Below are positions 1,891-23,689 of a stretch of 35,553 nt of DNA, one piece after another. A program made the position numbers and the translations under genes. Below the pieces are notes generated by a model that saw only the letters and a list, made by a program, of their open reading frames with translations, was not told where the DNA came from and made no database searches. Origin of the DNA: Lachnospiraceae bacterium. GTDB taxonomy: Bacteria; Bacillota; Clostridia; Lachnospirales; Lachnospiraceae. The stretch is from positions 1 to 35,553 of the forward strand of contig JAFZWG010000003.1 of assembly GCA_017617395.1 (NCBI GenBank), read 5' to 3'. How positions within the stretch are numbered: the stretch's first letter is position 1; each line of letters opens with the position of its first letter.

Positions 1891-2261
1891 TTGGGAATCT
1901 AAGCGGGCGCGGACGCGGAAAGCGCGGGGAACAGAGTCTCGCAAGAGGCTTCCCGGGCTCGGGCAACGGGCAGATCGTGGTCCTCGTCAGCTGCACGGGG
2001 CATCTAAGCGCCCGCTTCAAACGCATATCGAAAGGCCGCATCTGCGAAACTCGCTTCGCTCAAACATCTTGATGCGGCCTTTATGCATTCTCCCGGGCGC
2101 TAAGATGAGCCCTCTCGCAGGCTTGGCCTGCTCGAGTAGCAATGCTTCCGAGGACGACGATCGCCCGGCCGAGGGAAGCCTCGTTCACATCGGATTCCCG
2201 CGCTTCCCGCGTCAGCGCGCCCGCAAAGATTCCCCAACAAACAAAACAGGCAGGAAAACCG
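1869..2261 (+). repeat. Foldback intergenic element, copy 1 (about 393 bp imperfect palindrome)
   Basis: The segment folds back on itself at several nested levels. The outer arm 1869-1930 is complementary to 2197-2261; both contain the block CCTGTTTTGTTTG or its complement and the GAATCT...GCGGGCGC block. A middle pair is around 1945-1988 and 2147-2181. The core stems are 2001-2014 with 2094-2107, and 2031-2041 with 2072-2082 (11 bp, perfect). A further hairpin lies at 2113-2136. Bases 1985-2069 match 10981-11065 without gaps at about 92%. The core motif ATCTAAGCG...CGCTAAGAT recurs at 15065-15169 and, with paired changes, at 23412-23517. No protein is supported here. Function unknown: structured RNA or palindromic mobile repeat. 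Confidence 0.75.
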
Positions 2262-5050: not shown

Positions 5051-6208
5051 ATGGGTTTGTTTGACAAGAAGTTTTGCGACATTTGCGGTGAGAAGATCAG
5101 CTTCTTGGGGAATCACAAGCTTGAGGACGGCAACATGTGCTCGGCCTGCAACAAGAAGATGTCCCCGTTCTTCAGCGGCCGCAGAAAGACGACCGTTGCG
5201 GAGATGAAGGAGCACCTTGCGGAGCGCGAGGCGAACCGCGCGAGACTCGCGACGTTCAATGTGAACGCGGTTTACGGCGATTCCAAGAAGGTTTACGTGG
5301 ACACCGCAAACGGCAATTTCGTGGTGACGTATGCGGCGCCCGGGAATTTTGAGAAGGATAACCCCGACATCCTGCCGCTCTCGGCGGTTACCCGCTGCGA
5401 TCTCGACGTGAAGGAGCAGCGCGAGGAGGAATTTTCCAAGGATGCGAACGGCAACCGCGTGAGCTACAACCCGCCTCGCTATCGCTATTTCTATGATTTC
5501 AAGGTTGTCATCGGCGTGAACTGGAAGTGGTTCGACGAGATCGACATCAACTTAAATACCACCCGCGTTGAGGGTATGCAGTCTGCAAGATATCATCAGT
5601 TTGAGCTGATGGGCCAGCAGATTCGCAACGCTCTGACGGGCCAGCCGATCACGATCACGCAGACGTATGCGAACGCTCAGCCGCTGACCGGTGCCGATCT
5701 TTTGAGCATGATGGCGCAGGCGAACGTGGCCGCTTCCGCTGCTTCCGGCAGTGCGAACAGCTCGGTGGCATCGGTGTCCGCGCTCGGCAGCCAGCAGGCT
5801 CCGGTTTCGGTTGCCGCTTCGCAGGCAGCTCCGATTTCCGCGGCGCAGCCGACGGCAAATGTTCAGGCAGCTCCGACATCTGCGGCTCAGCCTACGGCGA
5901 ACACGTTCTCGAACGTGGCTCCGAACTGGATGTGTCCTTCTTGCGGTCGCTCGAACGACGGTGCATTCTGCAGCAACTGCGGTACCAAGAAGCCCGAGCC
6001 GAAGCCGCTTACGACGCACACCGAGTTCAAGACGGCTGCACCGAACTGGATGTGCCCGTCCTGCGGTCGCTCGAATGACGGCGCGTTCTGCAGCAACTGC
6101 GGCACCAAGAAGCCGGCGCCTCGCAAGAAGTGCCAGTCCTGCGGATGGCTTGCTCCGGTTGACGGCGCACCGAACTTCTGCCCGCAGTGCGGATCGAAGC
6201 TGGAGTAG
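5051..6208 (+). CDS. DUF4428 protein with C-terminal duplicated zinc ribbons
   Basis: A 385-residue, cysteine-rich, probably cytoplasmic protein with no signal or membrane segment. An N-terminal treble-clef-like zinc motif (CDICGEKI then CSACNKKM, residues 10-36) matches the DUF4428 type, followed by a beta-rich globular part to about residue 190. A low-complexity Ala/Ser/Gln/Pro linker covers about 220-290. The C-terminus has two nearly identical zinc ribbons (MCPSCGRSNDGAFCSNCG) 40 residues apart, and a third, diverged one (CQSCGWLAPVDG...CPQCG) at the end. Such ribbon arrays usually mediate protein or nucleic-acid contacts; the actual role is unknown. It is transcribed from its own promoter and stands alone. 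AGGAGG lies 9 nt before the ATG. Confidence 0.8.
   Translation: MGLFDKKFCDICGEKISFLGNHKLEDGNMCSACNKKMSPFFSGRRKTTVAEMKEHLAEREANRARLATFNVNAVYGDSKKVYVDTANGNFVVTYAAPGNFEKDNPDILPLSAVTRCDLDVKEQREEEFSKDANGNRVSYNPPRYRYFYDFKVVIGVNWKWFDEIDINLNTTRVEGMQSARYHQFELMGQQIRNALTGQPITITQTYANAQPLTGADLLSMMAQANVAASAASGSANSSVASVSALGSQQAPVSVAASQAAPISAAQPTANVQAAPTSAAQPTANTFSNVAPNWMCPSCGRSNDGAFCSNCGTKKPEPKPLTTHTEFKTAAPNWMCPSCGRSNDGAFCSNCGTKKPAPRKKCQSCGWLAPVDGAPNFCPQCGSKLE
5921..6114 (+). repeat. Two 74-bp direct repeats inside the DUF4428 gene
   Basis: 5921-5994 and 6041-6114 are direct repeats spaced 120 bp apart. They encode the same 24-residue zinc ribbon. The differences are almost all at third codon positions, so the amino-acid sequence has been kept while the DNA drifted. 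Confidence 0.85.
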
Positions 6209-10201: not shown

Positions 10202-10909
10202 ATGGAATCGGAAAATAAACAATCCATCCTGATCATTGAGGACGAGGAGGCCATCGCCGAGCTGGAGCGCGACTACCTGGAGCAGTCGGGCTACCGCGTG
10301 GAACTTGCCGGCGACGGTTCCCTTGGCCTTGCGCGCGCCCTCGAGGAGGACTTCGACCTTGTCATCCTCGACATCATGCTTCCCGGCCTTGACGGCTTCA
10401 GCGTCTGCAAGCGCATCCGCGAGTCCAAAAACATCCCGATCCTCCTTGTCTCGGCCAAAAAGGACGAAGCCGACAAGGTCAGCGGCCTGGGCCTCGGTGC
10501 CGACGACTACATCACCAAGCCCTTCAGCCCTTCCGAGCTCACTGCCCGCGTTCGCGCCCACCTCTCCCGGTATGCGCGCCTCACCGGCTCGGGCTCCCGC
10601 TCCGTCAGCGATGTCATCGAGATTCGCTCTCTCCACATCGACAAATCCGCCCGCCGTGTCCTCGTGAACGGCGAAGAGCGCCTCTTTACGAACAAAGAAT
10701 TTGACCTCCTCGTCTTCCTTGCGGAGCACCCGAACCAGGTCTTCTCCAAGGACGAACTCTTCCGCGCCATCTGGGAGATGGAGGTTGTCGGCGAGATCGC
10801 GACCGTGACGGTGCACATCAAAAAGATCCGCGAGAAAATCGAGCCGGTTCCGGGTAGCCCTCAGTTCATCGAAACCATCTGGGGCGTCGGCTACCGGTTT
10901 AAGGCGTAA
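10202..10909 (+). CDS. OmpR/PhoB-family response regulator
   Basis: A 235-residue transcription factor. The receiver domain (about 8-120) has the acidic pair in IEDEE, phospho-acceptor Asp57 (VILDIMLPG), Thr/Ser in LLVSAKK and Lys106 (ITKPF). The C-terminal winged helix (about 135-233) ends in the usual FIETIWGVGYRFK motif. ATG10202 is preceded by GGAGG. It is the partner of the kinase directly upstream. Targets are unknown. Confidence 0.95.
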   Translation: MESENKQSILIIEDEEAIAELERDYLEQSGYRVELAGDGSLGLARALEEDFDLVILDIMLPGLDGFSVCKRIRESKNIPILLVSAKKDEADKVSGLGLGADDYITKPFSPSELTARVRAHLSRYARLTGSGSRSVSDVIEIRSLHIDKSARRVLVNGEERLFTNKEFDLLVFLAEHPNQVFSKDELFRAIWEMEVVGEIATVTVHIKKIREKIEPVPGSPQFIETIWGVGYRFKA

Positions 10910-10980
10910 GGCGGCTGAGCGTTCGGACGCCGGGGCTCTGCCTCCCGGAAGGAATTCGGGCAGAGGCTCAGCAAAGCCCG

Positions 10981-11065
10981 CGTCAGCTGCACGGGGCATC
11001 TAAGCGCCCGCTTCAAACGAATATCGAAAGGCCGTTCCGTCGAAACTCGCTACGCTCAAACATCT
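10981..11065 (+). repeat. Foldback element, copy 2 (5' half only)
   Basis: These 85 bp match 1985-2069 without gaps at about 92% (seven differences), including the ATCTAAGCGCCCG arm (10999-11011) and the ACTCGCT.CGCTCAAACATCT loop. The 3' half, with the complementary arm CGCTAAGAT, is absent; the match stops exactly where an ordinary terminator begins. A CTCTGCC/GGCAGAG hairpin lies just upstream (about 10935-10970). This looks like a truncated copy. Confidence 0.75.
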
Positions 11066-11071
11066 ATTATT

Positions 11072-11096
11072 GGCGGAGACTGACTCCGCCTTTTTT
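11072..11096 (+). terminator. Rho-independent terminator
   Basis: A 7-bp GC-rich stem, GGCGGAG (11072-11078) with CTCCGCC (11084-11090), loop ACTGA, followed by six T. It can end the kinase/regulator transcript. The 11097-11239 stretch after it shows no gene. Confidence 0.85.
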
Positions 11097-11239
11097 GTTG
11101 AGTTCTTTGCGGGAGGCAAAGGAGGCCTTGGACAGGGGCAAGGAGTGGCATAAAACGCGGTTTTGACGGAAATCATTGCTTTTTTGGTGAATTTTGCGGC
11201 GGTTTTGGAAGGGGGAGGCAGGATGGGCAAAATCTGTGG

Positions 11240-14978: not shown

Positions 14979-15007
14979 ATTCTAGCATAGCACACCCCGG
15001 ATGTCAA
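14979..15007 (-). promoter_or_regulatory. Promoter of the minus-strand solute-binding gene
   Basis: On the minus strand consensus TTGACA (15007-15002), a 17-bp spacer and TAGAAT (14984-14979), about 80 bp from the start codon. It lies 12 bp from the left edge of foldback copy 3. Confidence 0.75.
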
Positions 15008-15018
15008 GTGCCCGAACC

Positions 15019-15237
15019 GCCGGCCCGATAAGAAAGGACCTATTCTCACGCGCAGATTCAGGGAATCTAAGCGTGCGCGGCGATCTCATGGGCAAGGGCG
15101 TTTCTGCGGGGCTCGCTTCGCTTCGGACAGTCCTCGAAACGCCCTAATCGATCTTGCGCGCGCTAAGATAGCCCTCCCAACGGCCGCGCCGTTGGGAGTC
15201 ATATGCTTGTTCGAACAGGCCCTTTTTCCGGGCCGGC
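15019..15237 (+). repeat. Foldback intergenic element, copy 3 (219 bp)
   Basis: Ends are inverted repeats: 15019-15045 (starting GCCGGCCCG, with GGACCTATTC inside) and 15213-15237 (GAACAGGCCC...GGGCCGGC). The core has stem 15065-15078/15156-15169 (ATCTAAGCG.../...CGCTAAGAT), stem 15095-15103/15137-15145 (AGGGCGTTT/AAACGCCCT, perfect) enclosing a loop almost identical to copy 4 (CTGCGGGGCTCGCTTCGCTT), and hairpin 15174-15184/15188-15198 (11 bp, perfect). It lies between two divergent promoters. The 15238-15397 stretch after it holds nothing recognisable. Confidence 0.8.
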
Positions 15238-15397
15238 CGTTCGGCAACGGACTATCCGGGGGAGATGGCACGGACCTCCTATCGGGCTGCCTTCCGGTCG
15301 TCTCTTTCCGCGAAGGATTTCCGTCCTCCGAGTCGGGAAATGACGGAAAACACGTCGTGGAAGAGTTGGCCCGGAAGGGGGCCAAAAGGGGCAAGGG

Positions 15398-21107: not shown

Positions 21108-23282
21108 ATGGATCGGAACACAGACCGGAGACCGACGACGAACCGGAGTTCGTCGGGAAGCCGGAGCTCTTCGGGAACAGGTCGAAGCACTTCGGGAACG
21201 AGGACGGCGGCGAGCAGAAGCAGCAAAAAGCGCAAGCGCAGACAAAAGCGCCTGGCCATTTTGTGGGGCGGCATCGCGGCGATCATACTGATTCTCGGAC
21301 TGGTGATTTATTTTACGTCGAAGGACGATGGCGGAGATGACAAATCCCCGACCGTAACCTCCGCGCCCGGCAAGACGACGCCCGGCGTCGATGTGACCGG
21401 AACGCCCGGCCCGGACGAGCCGTCGCCCACGGAGGAGGCGGGAATCGACTGGAAGACGATGCCCTTGACGGGCCTGCGGTTTACCGAGGCGATGTCCTCG
21501 AACACCAAATACGCCGAGCTGAACGGCACCTTCCCCGACTGGGTGGAGCTCTACAACGCCTCCGACGCGGCGATCCAGCTCTCCTCGTACTGGATCTCGG
21601 ACGACAAGGATATCCCGCAGAAGTATCAGCTGCCGGCATATTCGCTTGCGCCCGGCGAGCGCTACATCATCTACTGCAACGGTGTCGGCGAAGGCAATCA
21701 GGCGCCGTTTAAGATCAGCTCCGACGGTGAGAAGGTGTACCTCTCGACCGTGGATGGATTTGTCGACCGAATCAAGGTTCCGGCCGACCTTCTGAAGGAT
21801 ACCAGCTACGGCCGCAGCGGCGACGAGTGGCTCTACTACGACACGCCGACGCCCGGCAAGGAGAACGGCTCCGGCTACGCGGCGCGCACGTCCGTTCCCG
21901 AGGCAAATTTCGTCTCCGGCGTTTATGACAACCCGATCACCGTGACGCTGTTCGGCGAGGGAACCATCTACTACACGCTCGACGGCACCAAGCCGACGAC
22001 CTCCTCGTCGGTCTACAAGGACGGCATCGCCATCTCCGGCGTCAAGACGCTCCGCACGATGGCCGTGAAGGACGGCCGCGAGAGCGACTACGCCGCCTAC
22101 ACTTATGTCGTCGGCCAGAAGCACACGCTTCCGATCGTGGTTCTGAGCGGCCCGTATGAGACGACGATCGGCCCGAACGGTGTCGACCAGAAGAACAAGA
22201 AGGGCAGCGGCATCGAGGCCGAGGTCATGATGACCCTGATCGAGAACGGCGAAGAAAAATTCTCCATCCCCGCAGGAATCACCCTCCACGGCAACAACGG
22301 CGGAAGCCGCGACCTTCCGAAGAAGAATTTTAATGTGCATTTCCGCTCCGCATACGGCGCGGGCAAGCTCCACTACAAGGTGTTCGACGACCTCGAGATC
22401 GAGGAGTTCAACTCCCTGCTCTTAAAGGGCGGTGCCGAAGACTGGTACCGAACGATGATCCGCGACGAATTCATGACGCACATGGTCATCGGCAACACCG
22501 CTCTGTGCGCCCAGGCGTGCAAGCCGGTTGTCCTTTACCTCGGCGGCGAATTCTGGGGCATCTACTTCCTGCGCGAGCGCTTCAGCGCCGACTACGTTGC
22601 GACCCACTACAACGTCTCGACCGATTCCGTCAACCTGATCTCGGGCTACGGCAACGTCGAGGAGGGCAGCATCAAGAGCTATAACGAGATCGTCAAATTC
22701 GTCAAGAACAACAGTCTCGACAACGACGAGAACTACCAGTGGTTTGAAGAGCATGTCGACATCAACAGCCTTATGGACTGGTACATCTGCCGCTCCTACA
22801 TGGGTGACAAGGATCTTGCCAACATCCGCTACTTCAACTCCACCGAGGGCGACGGCAAATGGCGCTGGATGTTCTACGATATGGACTGGGGCTTCGACCC
22901 CTCCGCCGCAACACAGGCGAACCCGATCTCGGGCATCATCCAGAACAACGACCGCCACATCCTGATCTACAAGCTCGTTCACTCGAAGCGCGGCAAGGAC
23001 GCTTTCCTCAAGCGCTACGCCTACCTGATGAACACCATCCTCAATGAGGAGTACGTGAAAAAGGAGCTCGACTACTGGCGCAACATCCTTCAGCCCGAGA
23101 TTGAGGCTGACCGCACGCGCTGGGGCAAGACCGTCGAGGCCTGGAACAACAGCATGGACTTCCTCTACACCTACAATAAGGATGGCAAGCGCGACAAGGC
23201 TGTGCTGGCCGACATCAAGAAATACTTCGGGCTGTCCGATGCCCAGATGACCGAATACTTCGGTTCCAAGTACCAGAAATAA
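21108..23282 (+). CDS. CotH-family protein with lamin-tail and chitobiase-type domains
   Basis: A 724-residue membrane-anchored protein. Order of parts: Ser/Arg/Thr-rich cytoplasmic tail (1-47), one helix (about 49-71), Thr/Pro linker, lamin-tail domain (about 120-235, FPDWVELYNASDAAIQLSSYWISDD), a chitobiase/Fn3-associated beta domain (about 262-330, GTIYYTLDGTKPT), and a CotH kinase-fold domain (about 340-660) with KKNFNVHFR, GGAEDW, and RWMFYDMDWGFD near 584-596. CotH proteins are atypical protein kinases first known from spore coats; extracellular forms with these accessory domains are common in cellulolytic and gut Clostridia. It starts 6 nt after dtd. The target is unknown. Confidence 0.88.
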   Translation: MDRNTDRRPTTNRSSSGSRSSSGTGRSTSGTRTAASRSSKKRKRRQKRLAILWGGIAAIILILGLVIYFTSKDDGGDDKSPTVTSAPGKTTPGVDVTGTPGPDEPSPTEEAGIDWKTMPLTGLRFTEAMSSNTKYAELNGTFPDWVELYNASDAAIQLSSYWISDDKDIPQKYQLPAYSLAPGERYIIYCNGVGEGNQAPFKISSDGEKVYLSTVDGFVDRIKVPADLLKDTSYGRSGDEWLYYDTPTPGKENGSGYAARTSVPEANFVSGVYDNPITVTLFGEGTIYYTLDGTKPTTSSSVYKDGIAISGVKTLRTMAVKDGRESDYAAYTYVVGQKHTLPIVVLSGPYETTIGPNGVDQKNKKGSGIEAEVMMTLIENGEEKFSIPAGITLHGNNGGSRDLPKKNFNVHFRSAYGAGKLHYKVFDDLEIEEFNSLLLKGGAEDWYRTMIRDEFMTHMVIGNTALCAQACKPVVLYLGGEFWGIYFLRERFSADYVATHYNVSTDSVNLISGYGNVEEGSIKSYNEIVKFVKNNSLDNDENYQWFEEHVDINSLMDWYICRSYMGDKDLANIRYFNSTEGDGKWRWMFYDMDWGFDPSAATQANPISGIIQNNDRHILIYKLVHSKRGKDAFLKRYAYLMNTILNEEYVKKELDYWRNILQPEIEADRTRWGKTVEAWNNSMDFLYTYNKDGKRDKAVLADIKKYFGLSDAQMTEYFGSKYQK

Positions 23283-23287
23283 TCCCA

Positions 23288-23315
23288 TCCCCCGGCTTCC
23301 TGCCGGGGGATTTTT
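23288..23315 (+). terminator. Operon terminator after cotH
   Basis: A perfect 9-bp stem TCCCCCGGC (23288-23296) / GCCGGGGGA (23302-23310), loop TTCCT, and T5. It closes the nuclease-ATPase-xpt-dtd-cotH operon. Confidence 0.9.
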
Positions 23316-23321
23316 GCGCCT

Positions 23322-23627
23322 TGCGGCCGGGCGGGCCGGGGAAACAAGGCCGCGGCAGGCCAGAATCGGCAGCGAGCTCAGAGCAGATTGGCTCAGTCGC
23401 AGGTTCAGGGAATCTAGGCGCGCGCTTCACCCGCATAACCAAGGCCGCTTCTGCGGGGCTCGCTTCGCTTCGAACAGTCCTCGAAGCGACCTATGCTCTG
23501 CTCCCGCGCGCCAAGATAGCCCTCGCGAAGGCACGCCTTCGCGAGTCACATGCTCCTTCGCCAATCTCTCTGTGTTCGCTGCCGTTTGTGCGGTTTCGGG
23601 CGGCCTTGTTCCGGCCCGTCGGCCGCA
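23322..23627 (+). repeat. Foldback intergenic element, copy 4 (306 bp)
   Basis: A long imperfect palindrome. The outer arms 23322-23354 and 23600-23627 pair (TGCGGCCG...ACAAGGCCGC with its complement). The second arms 23367-23392 and 23560-23584 pair (CGGCAGCGA..CAGAG..GATTGGC). Core stem 23412-23424/23505-23517 is ATCTAGGCGCGCG/CGCGCGCCAAGAT. Inner stem is 23442-23451/23483-23492. The third hairpin is 23522-23531/23536-23545 (10 bp, perfect). The central loop is nearly identical to copy 3. It follows the cotH terminator directly. Confidence 0.8.
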
Positions 23628-23689
23628 GGGGAAAAACCGGCGGGAGCGGGGGTGGGATTATTGTGGCGGGAACGGACGGTAGGTTGATA

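Follow-up and report, generated by a model that had tools for sequence, protein, structure and literature searches.

Among the described systems that can be compared with the foldback element reported here, miniature inverted-repeat transposable elements (MITEs) come closest. MITEs are short and non-coding, occur in many copies and are mostly intergenic, and the foldback element shares all of these properties. Repeated extragenic palindromes of the REP/REPIN type, which are moved by RAYT (TnpA_REP), are thought to form DNA hairpins with conserved unpaired bases, and the attC sites of integrons are characterized by R boxes (RYYYAAC/GTTRRRY) and a variable apex. Rickettsia palindromic elements (RPE) are described as palindromic sequences of about 150 bp that can sit in frame within protein genes (PMC10969869). 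Coding palindromes in the mitochondria of Nematomorpha evolve concertedly, with both arms changing together, for which conversion or template switching has been proposed (PMC6649704).

The foldback element was found in a window of 35,553 nucleotides, which is the whole stretch of DNA that was analysed and corresponds to contig C74 in the draft genome G000 (2.34 Mb, completeness 85%) of a Lachnospiraceae bacterium. A preliminary description of the window had reported three full intergenic copies (1869-2261, 15019-15237, and 23322-23627), the stems of which differ between copies yet stay paired. All three copies and the quoted stems are present in the sequence, and a fourth, truncated copy has to be added at 10978-11065. 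The foldbacks at 15019-15237 and 23322-23627 are real, but their paired arms extend beyond these borders. The features of the four copies are as follows, with covariance model scores referring to model R1.

About 14995-15261, unstranded: foldback copy 2, outermost paired arms, from local alignment of both flanks (DNA fold z calculated for 15019-15237).
15059-15175, plus strand: conserved core of copy 2 (R1, 96.9 bits).
15067-15070, plus strand: 5' anchor CTAA of copy 2, from the sequence; C-T-A is invariant in 35/35 cores.
15164-15167, plus strand: 3' anchor TAAG of copy 2, from the sequence; A-A-G is invariant in 35/35 cores.
15095-15103, plus strand: 5' side of the copy 2 inner stem, AGGGCGTTT, with its partner at 15137-15145 (sequence and fold).
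15137-15145, plus strand: 3' side of the copy 2 inner stem, AAACGCCCT (sequence and fold).
15103-15137, plus strand: apex block of copy 2, TCTGCGGGGCTCGCTTCGCTTCGGACAGTCCTCGA, the most conserved block of the family, from the sequence.
15115-15121, minus strand: GNA DNA minihairpin of copy 2, GCGAAGC, from the sequence and the conservation of GCGNAGC, with minihairpin properties as given in PMC4686876.
15174-15198, plus strand: third hairpin of copy 2, CTCCCAACGG/CCGTTGGGAG (sequence and fold).
1869-2261, unstranded: foldback copy 1, in which a younger element appears to lie within an older one (arms; DNA fold z -14.19).
1996-2112, plus strand: conserved core of copy 1 (R1, 85.9 bits).
23278-23662, unstranded: foldback copy 3, outermost paired arms (DNA fold z calculated for 23322-23627).
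23406-23523, plus strand: conserved core of copy 3 (R1, 87.3 bits).
10978-11065, plus strand: fourth copy, truncated after the apex (91% identity to 1982-2069; no match with R1).

Folded as single-stranded DNA, copy 1 was more stable than all of 100 dinucleotide shuffles, as was copy 3 (z -9.64), and none of 200 shuffles was as stable as 15019-15237 (z -4.43). The stem formed by ATCTAAGCG opposite CGCTAAGAT is present as first described; however, it contains an A·A mismatch, which in copy 2 is formed by the third base of the 5' anchor and position 15165 and which is invariant in an alignment of 35 cores. Pairing of the inner stems in each copy likewise holds in general, except for one C·A mismatch in the 23322 copy (AGGCCGCTTC/GAAGCGACCT). 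On the minus strand, the truncated copy has GCGTAGC at its apex. In copy 1, the outer stem (1893-1912, 2216-2236) repeats the core motif, with GGGAATCTAAGCGGGCGCG opposite CGCGCCCGCAAAGATTCCC, and by eye a younger core seems to sit inside the stem or loop of an older element. A separate observation in the window concerns two direct 96-nt repeats (5905-6120; 83% identity, 120 nt apart) within a predicted reading frame, which by eye look like tandem zinc-ribbon repeats.

Relatives of the element were detected by BLAST in 10 of 41 genomes, every one of which belongs to the window's genus. The search with a covariance model that the preliminary description had proposed resulted in 83 matches, a few of them partial, in 13 of 22 genomes of this genus. 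R1 matched, with stricter filters, in 34 of 397 Lachnospiraceae genomes and 30 of 334 genera; in a phylum-wide sample it matched in just two of 398 genomes, both Lachnospiraceae; most of the genomes are drafts and element-negative status depends on these filtered searches. In the loci examined, 67 of 88 apex-like copies carry CTA[AG] 34-38 nt before and [CTG]AAG 25-30 nt after the apex. Thirty-five cores from many loci, selected for these anchors, were aligned (A1). In A1, C-T-A in the 5' anchor, A-A-G in the 3' anchor, and the greater part of the apex do not vary at all, while the stems are free; since the anchor columns are invariant, the A·A mismatch is constant. The near-invariant parts of the core are the CTAR/YAAG stem with its mismatch and the apex. 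RNAalifold predicted 30 pairs for A1, 22 of which have changes on both sides. In the consensus structure 90.6% of the cells are paired versus 66.3% after shuffling (0/500 shuffles reach the observed value), and at most 45.8% when the structure is slid out of register. The joint variation of the arms around conserved loops, which had been noted for three copies, is a property of a real family and persists in the larger alignment with a covariation score of 0.635 versus 0.170 in the shuffled control. Integron attC sites were considered and dropped on inspection, as the invariant columns of A1 lie at other positions and no part is more conserved than the apex.

The fold is retained in divergent members, which have other variants of the apex; the outer arms of some are nearly perfect over tens of bp. 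In the G007 copies (L044, L045, L046, L048, and L051) the apical hairpin is much longer and the third hairpin longer than in other copies. An exact 25-base apex pattern occurs in 79 stretches of the genome collection, which are mostly labelled Lachnospiraceae or Pseudobutyrivibrio, the other labels being Saccharibacteria (4), Paraprevotella (2), Sulfurimonas (1), and Cellvibrionaceae (1). Contigs with these four labels include L063, L129, L102, L092, L074, and L104, for which wrong binning is possible. The CTAR/YAAG anchors are absent at the usual distances in all eight of these stretches, so that their kinship with the family is unproven. In Saccharibacteria, a foldback with the same apex lies inside a RecJ frame that scores above the TIGR00644 cut-off (L113, 2255-4105), and another lies within a LepA frame (L088, 3157-4221), which matches its model only to position 281/595 and below the cut-off, and the gene may therefore be broken. 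The apex 34-mer gave zero phage matches and a single partial match of 24 bases in plasmids, and the exact apex pattern was not present in viral contigs. Altogether, the copies form a family of short, apparently mobile foldback DNA that is scattered in some gut and rumen bacteria.

Mobility was observed for one genus only, g63, which is represented by G083 (a single-contig genome of 6.9 Mb) and G397, and is clear there. Most g63 copies span near 289 bp and share common ends near GTWACNGTTCAC, and terminal inverted repeats are present. An exact 8-bp direct repeat at the ends was found in 9 of 120 copies over all genera (null 0.24), all nine belonging to g63 and none to the remaining copies of the 120. 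In an enlarged g63 set, 19 of 39 copies have exact 8-bp target duplications (null 0.3) and 12 more have duplications with one mismatch (null 3.5). Because of these duplications, the g63 unit can be regarded as transposing or as having done so recently. Three perfect or near-perfect palindromes (L316, L320, and L323) have g63 ends and no core, and are perhaps deletion derivatives.

In the window's genus, no 8-mer of the kind expected for terminal repeats is common to at least a fifth of 58 copies. The syntenic relative G003 has an extra copy near 15323-15336, where the window has none, and G000 has an extra copy in contig C33 compared to G003; at 10902-11142, the two genomes carry different elements. 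The element-less alleles in this comparison are themselves palindromic, so that loss rather than gain is possible, and the interpretation of these "empty" sites as clean insertions was dropped for the same reason. In G003, the left arm of one element (L037, 11227-11484; corresponding to window 10902-10934) overlaps the last 6 nt of the frame of the upstream gene, and its right arm is an inverted copy of the stretch that overlaps this gene. This arm may have been templated on the host flank.

Searches based on Y1, DUF559, IS256, or two g63 end patterns did not lead to a transposase for the element. Mobilisation of the RAYT/IS200 type was discarded for lack of an association of Y1 genes with the element: PF01797 (Y1) is present in 19 of 32 carriers versus 9 of 16 non-carriers, and within the window's genus in 4 of 13 versus 2 of 9. 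The apex motif is also absent from the eight Y1 loci scanned in this genus (L136-L143). A DUF559 endonuclease was rejected as partner, being present in 1 of 22 genomes, as was IS256 as parent, which is absent from G397 and represented only by fragments in G083. An autonomous IS with g63 ends was not found with either end pattern, for the second among the matches listed.

These properties are best explained by a MITE-like foldback acting as extruded single-stranded DNA, in which the covariation results largely from copying between the arms and in which loops and apex are kept by selection; the probability of this reading is estimated at about 0.68. The working form would most likely be one DNA strand (the minus strand for the window copies) that is extruded as a hairpin, in which a long stem carries the conserved internal loops and the A·A mismatch, and the GNA DNA minihairpin closes the apex. 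A protein would read the loops and the apex, and the stem would only need to be paired. A transposase supplied in trans would insert the non-autonomous unit, leaving the 8-bp target duplications in g63. In the folded state, one arm could template the other by hairpin-templated repair or template switching during replication, by which a mutation in one arm would either be copied to the partner arm or be reversed. The single-stranded intermediate, the binding protein, and the copying biochemistry are putative components of this model. The window copies presumably work like those of g63, as the transfer of the evidence for mobility and copying to them is based on homology of the core. A farther-reaching version describes a mobile element that inherits a DNA fold and not a sequence: its single-stranded hairpin would be recognised at the GNA apex and the asymmetric loops, one arm would be re-templated in each cycle, and the apex motif would have spread to other phyla. 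This version is tentative and appears rather unlikely.

Evidence for arm-to-arm copying comes from g63. In the alignment of 39 copies, the outer arm varies between copies, with 0.8 to 1.2 bits per column, and both arms of one copy agree at 95-99%. Beside the outer arm lies an unpaired internal loop, around AGTTCCGG on one and TGTGACTTTGCA on the other side, which is conserved from copy to copy. In one copy (L259) both arms carry the 3' loop version, which is expected if one arm was copied onto the other. Among 11 separate sister insertions of a g63 subfamily (660 site pairs), 21 paired differences from the consensus, representing 15 distinct events, were observed next to 12 single-arm differences. 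From the single-arm rate (12 in 1,320), about 0.02 independent matching double changes are expected, and the 15 paired changes therefore look like coupled events. Since the paired substitutions far exceed independent mutation and L259 shows a block replacement, copying can generate covariation, and the conclusion of the preliminary description that the paired arms alone indicate a selected structure is not supported in this form. The persistence of unpaired loops despite arm copying suggests selection on the loops, with loop-losing copies spreading less. Evidence of selection is clearer in the loops, which stay unpaired, in the A·A mismatch, and in the apex than in the paired arms, and selection for pairing may act alongside copying.

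A mobile DNA foldback whose arms are paired by selection alone, with mismatches lowering mobility until they are compensated or the copy is lost, would account for the accumulation of both-arm changes with divergence, and would be compatible with loops and an A·A mismatch that remain unpaired and conserved, i.e., with pairing that is not enforced everywhere. It is improbable in view of the 15 distinct paired events versus 12 single-arm differences in recent sister insertions, where about 0.02 were expected from independent mutation, and of the block replacement in L259. Changes at orthologous sites were also compared between G000 and G003, with mixed results. In G003, locus c (window 23322) has an inner hairpin of a different type, with both arms differing jointly. 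At this locus 77 pairs are unchanged, 6 changed on both sides, 14 are broken, 8 are gapped, and 4 have become G·T or A·C by a change in one arm; the 14 broken pairs as opposed to the 6 jointly changed ones speak against the preferred reading. The orthologous copies at loci a and d are nearly unchanged, though their flanks differ, and this near-identity fits constraint as well as low turnover.

The near-identity of loci a and d could also indicate a fixed DNA site that serves the host in replication, segregation, or recombination and is not mobile, its arms drifting freely. Across genera, the arms are much less conserved than the loops, the A·A mismatch, and the apex, which agrees with such a site. 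This explanation is still less probable than pairing by selection alone, as a host site is difficult to reconcile with the patchy distribution (13/22 genomes of the genus, 34/397 of Lachnospiraceae), with the different positions in near relatives, and with the amplification with target duplications in g63.

The preferred reading of an extruded DNA hairpin also depends on the nature of the paired molecule, which the preliminary description had left open as either RNA or extruded DNA. For a comparison of the arms, up to 150 nt of flanking sequence on each side of the core were used for 120 of the 125 R1 matches (five were dropped because of short flanks). Complementarity between the two flanking arms of one copy exceeded the 99th percentile of pairs formed across copies in 117 of these 120. 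If an RNA were under selection, G·U should be acceptable on its own strand, and a clear excess of either G·T or A·C would be expected. The arm mismatches of the 120 copies comprise 165 G·T and 150 A·C, and the 25 core pairs outside the apex, scored in 120 distinct core rows (A2), include 39 G·T and 53 A·C. Acceptor stems of 16 tRNAs had 13 G·T and 2 A·C, a small control that is biased towards G·T, as G·T was scored as a pair when the stem register was set. With G·T and A·C about equally common, a symmetry expected of DNA-level pairing, the pairing looks as if it is maintained at the level of DNA. The pattern used as an Rfam-type criterion, in which G·U is tolerated and A·C is not, is not found in the element stems, neither in the arms nor in the core.

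The apex points in the same direction. On the minus strand it reads GAGCG-N-AGCGAG, where N is A in 63, C in 33, T in 6, and G in 3 of the 105 apexes found in 120 distinct cores by a fuzzy motif search, which favours this motif; all positions other than N have one base at 91% or more. Among the 15 cores without this apex, the apical stem is longer in three (L272, L273, and L282), where other bases pair, and two (L288 and L290) have a GACA loop. According to one study, GNA and GNNA loops closed by two or more G-C pairs give DNA minihairpins of extraordinary stability (PMC4686876). The apex GC-GNA-GC, in which N is the only free base, matches this known superstable minihairpin. As it reads as such on the minus strand, the recognised form is probably the minus strand as single-stranded DNA, and a protein presumably recognises its hairpin.

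With respect to the flanking genes, 36 copies between tandem genes have the same direction as these and 31 the opposite one; 22 copies lie between convergent and 14 between divergent genes, and 17 overlap predicted ORFs, 14 of which are no longer than 140 aa. In the window, the Rfam search gave just a tRNA at the gathering threshold. At 20 loci with divergent copies, the element matched only microRNA-precursor models under the gathering scores, which are read as chance matches to long hairpins; the statement that no named family fits is thus supported for the window and these loci. Mismatch symmetry and GNA apex favour DNA over RNA. A structured regulatory or non-coding RNA family held paired by compensatory evolution, to which very strong covariation, conserved loops, and the many copies in 3' flanks of genes could be attributed, is the least probable explanation and can largely be dismissed, since G·T is no more frequent than A·C, copies between tandem genes show no consistent orientation (36 in the direction of the genes, 31 opposite), g63 copies have target duplications, and the family matched no Rfam model at its threshold in the window and the 20 loci and has an apex of the DNA-minihairpin type.

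Covariation is usually read as a sign of selected RNA structure, whereas here a DNA family, which is mobile in g63, gives very strong covariation. The approximate equality of G·T and A·C together with the evidence from sister copies provides a usable test for other intergenic "RNA" motifs. The family is furthermore natural material for studying the survival, repair, and movement of long palindromes in bacteria, and raises the question of whether a GNA DNA minihairpin is read by a protein and, if so, by which one.

A description of the family was not found among the matches listed from the open-licence PMC literature searched, and the letters of the apex motif were matched in open-licence print, among the matches listed, only by three plant or animal papers. 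Compared to the known systems, the palindromes of Nematomorpha share the joint change of both arms, but they belong to animal mitochondria and do not make up a dispersed family of sequences that has a conserved core. The RPE, compared by description, resemble the related-looking foldback within the full-length RecJ frame of a Saccharibacteria contig; the Saccharibacteria foldbacks, however, share just the apex block with the family, with kinship unproven, and none of the 79 stretches that contain the exact apex pattern comes from a Rickettsia record. By analogy, the element may work like REP elements, as a DNA hairpin with conserved unpaired bases, but it is much longer and does not track Y1 transposase genes. 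The likeness to MITEs extends in g63 to terminal inverted repeats and 8-bp target duplications, which are not demonstrable for the window's genus. In contrast to MITEs, a parent IS has not been found for the foldback (by two g63 end patterns, among the matches listed, and for the IS256 family), and a single long palindrome, in which loops and apex form a conserved core, makes up the entire element. What is unusual is the mode of sequence evolution: the arms are free in sequence and vary by copy, yet match themselves within each copy.
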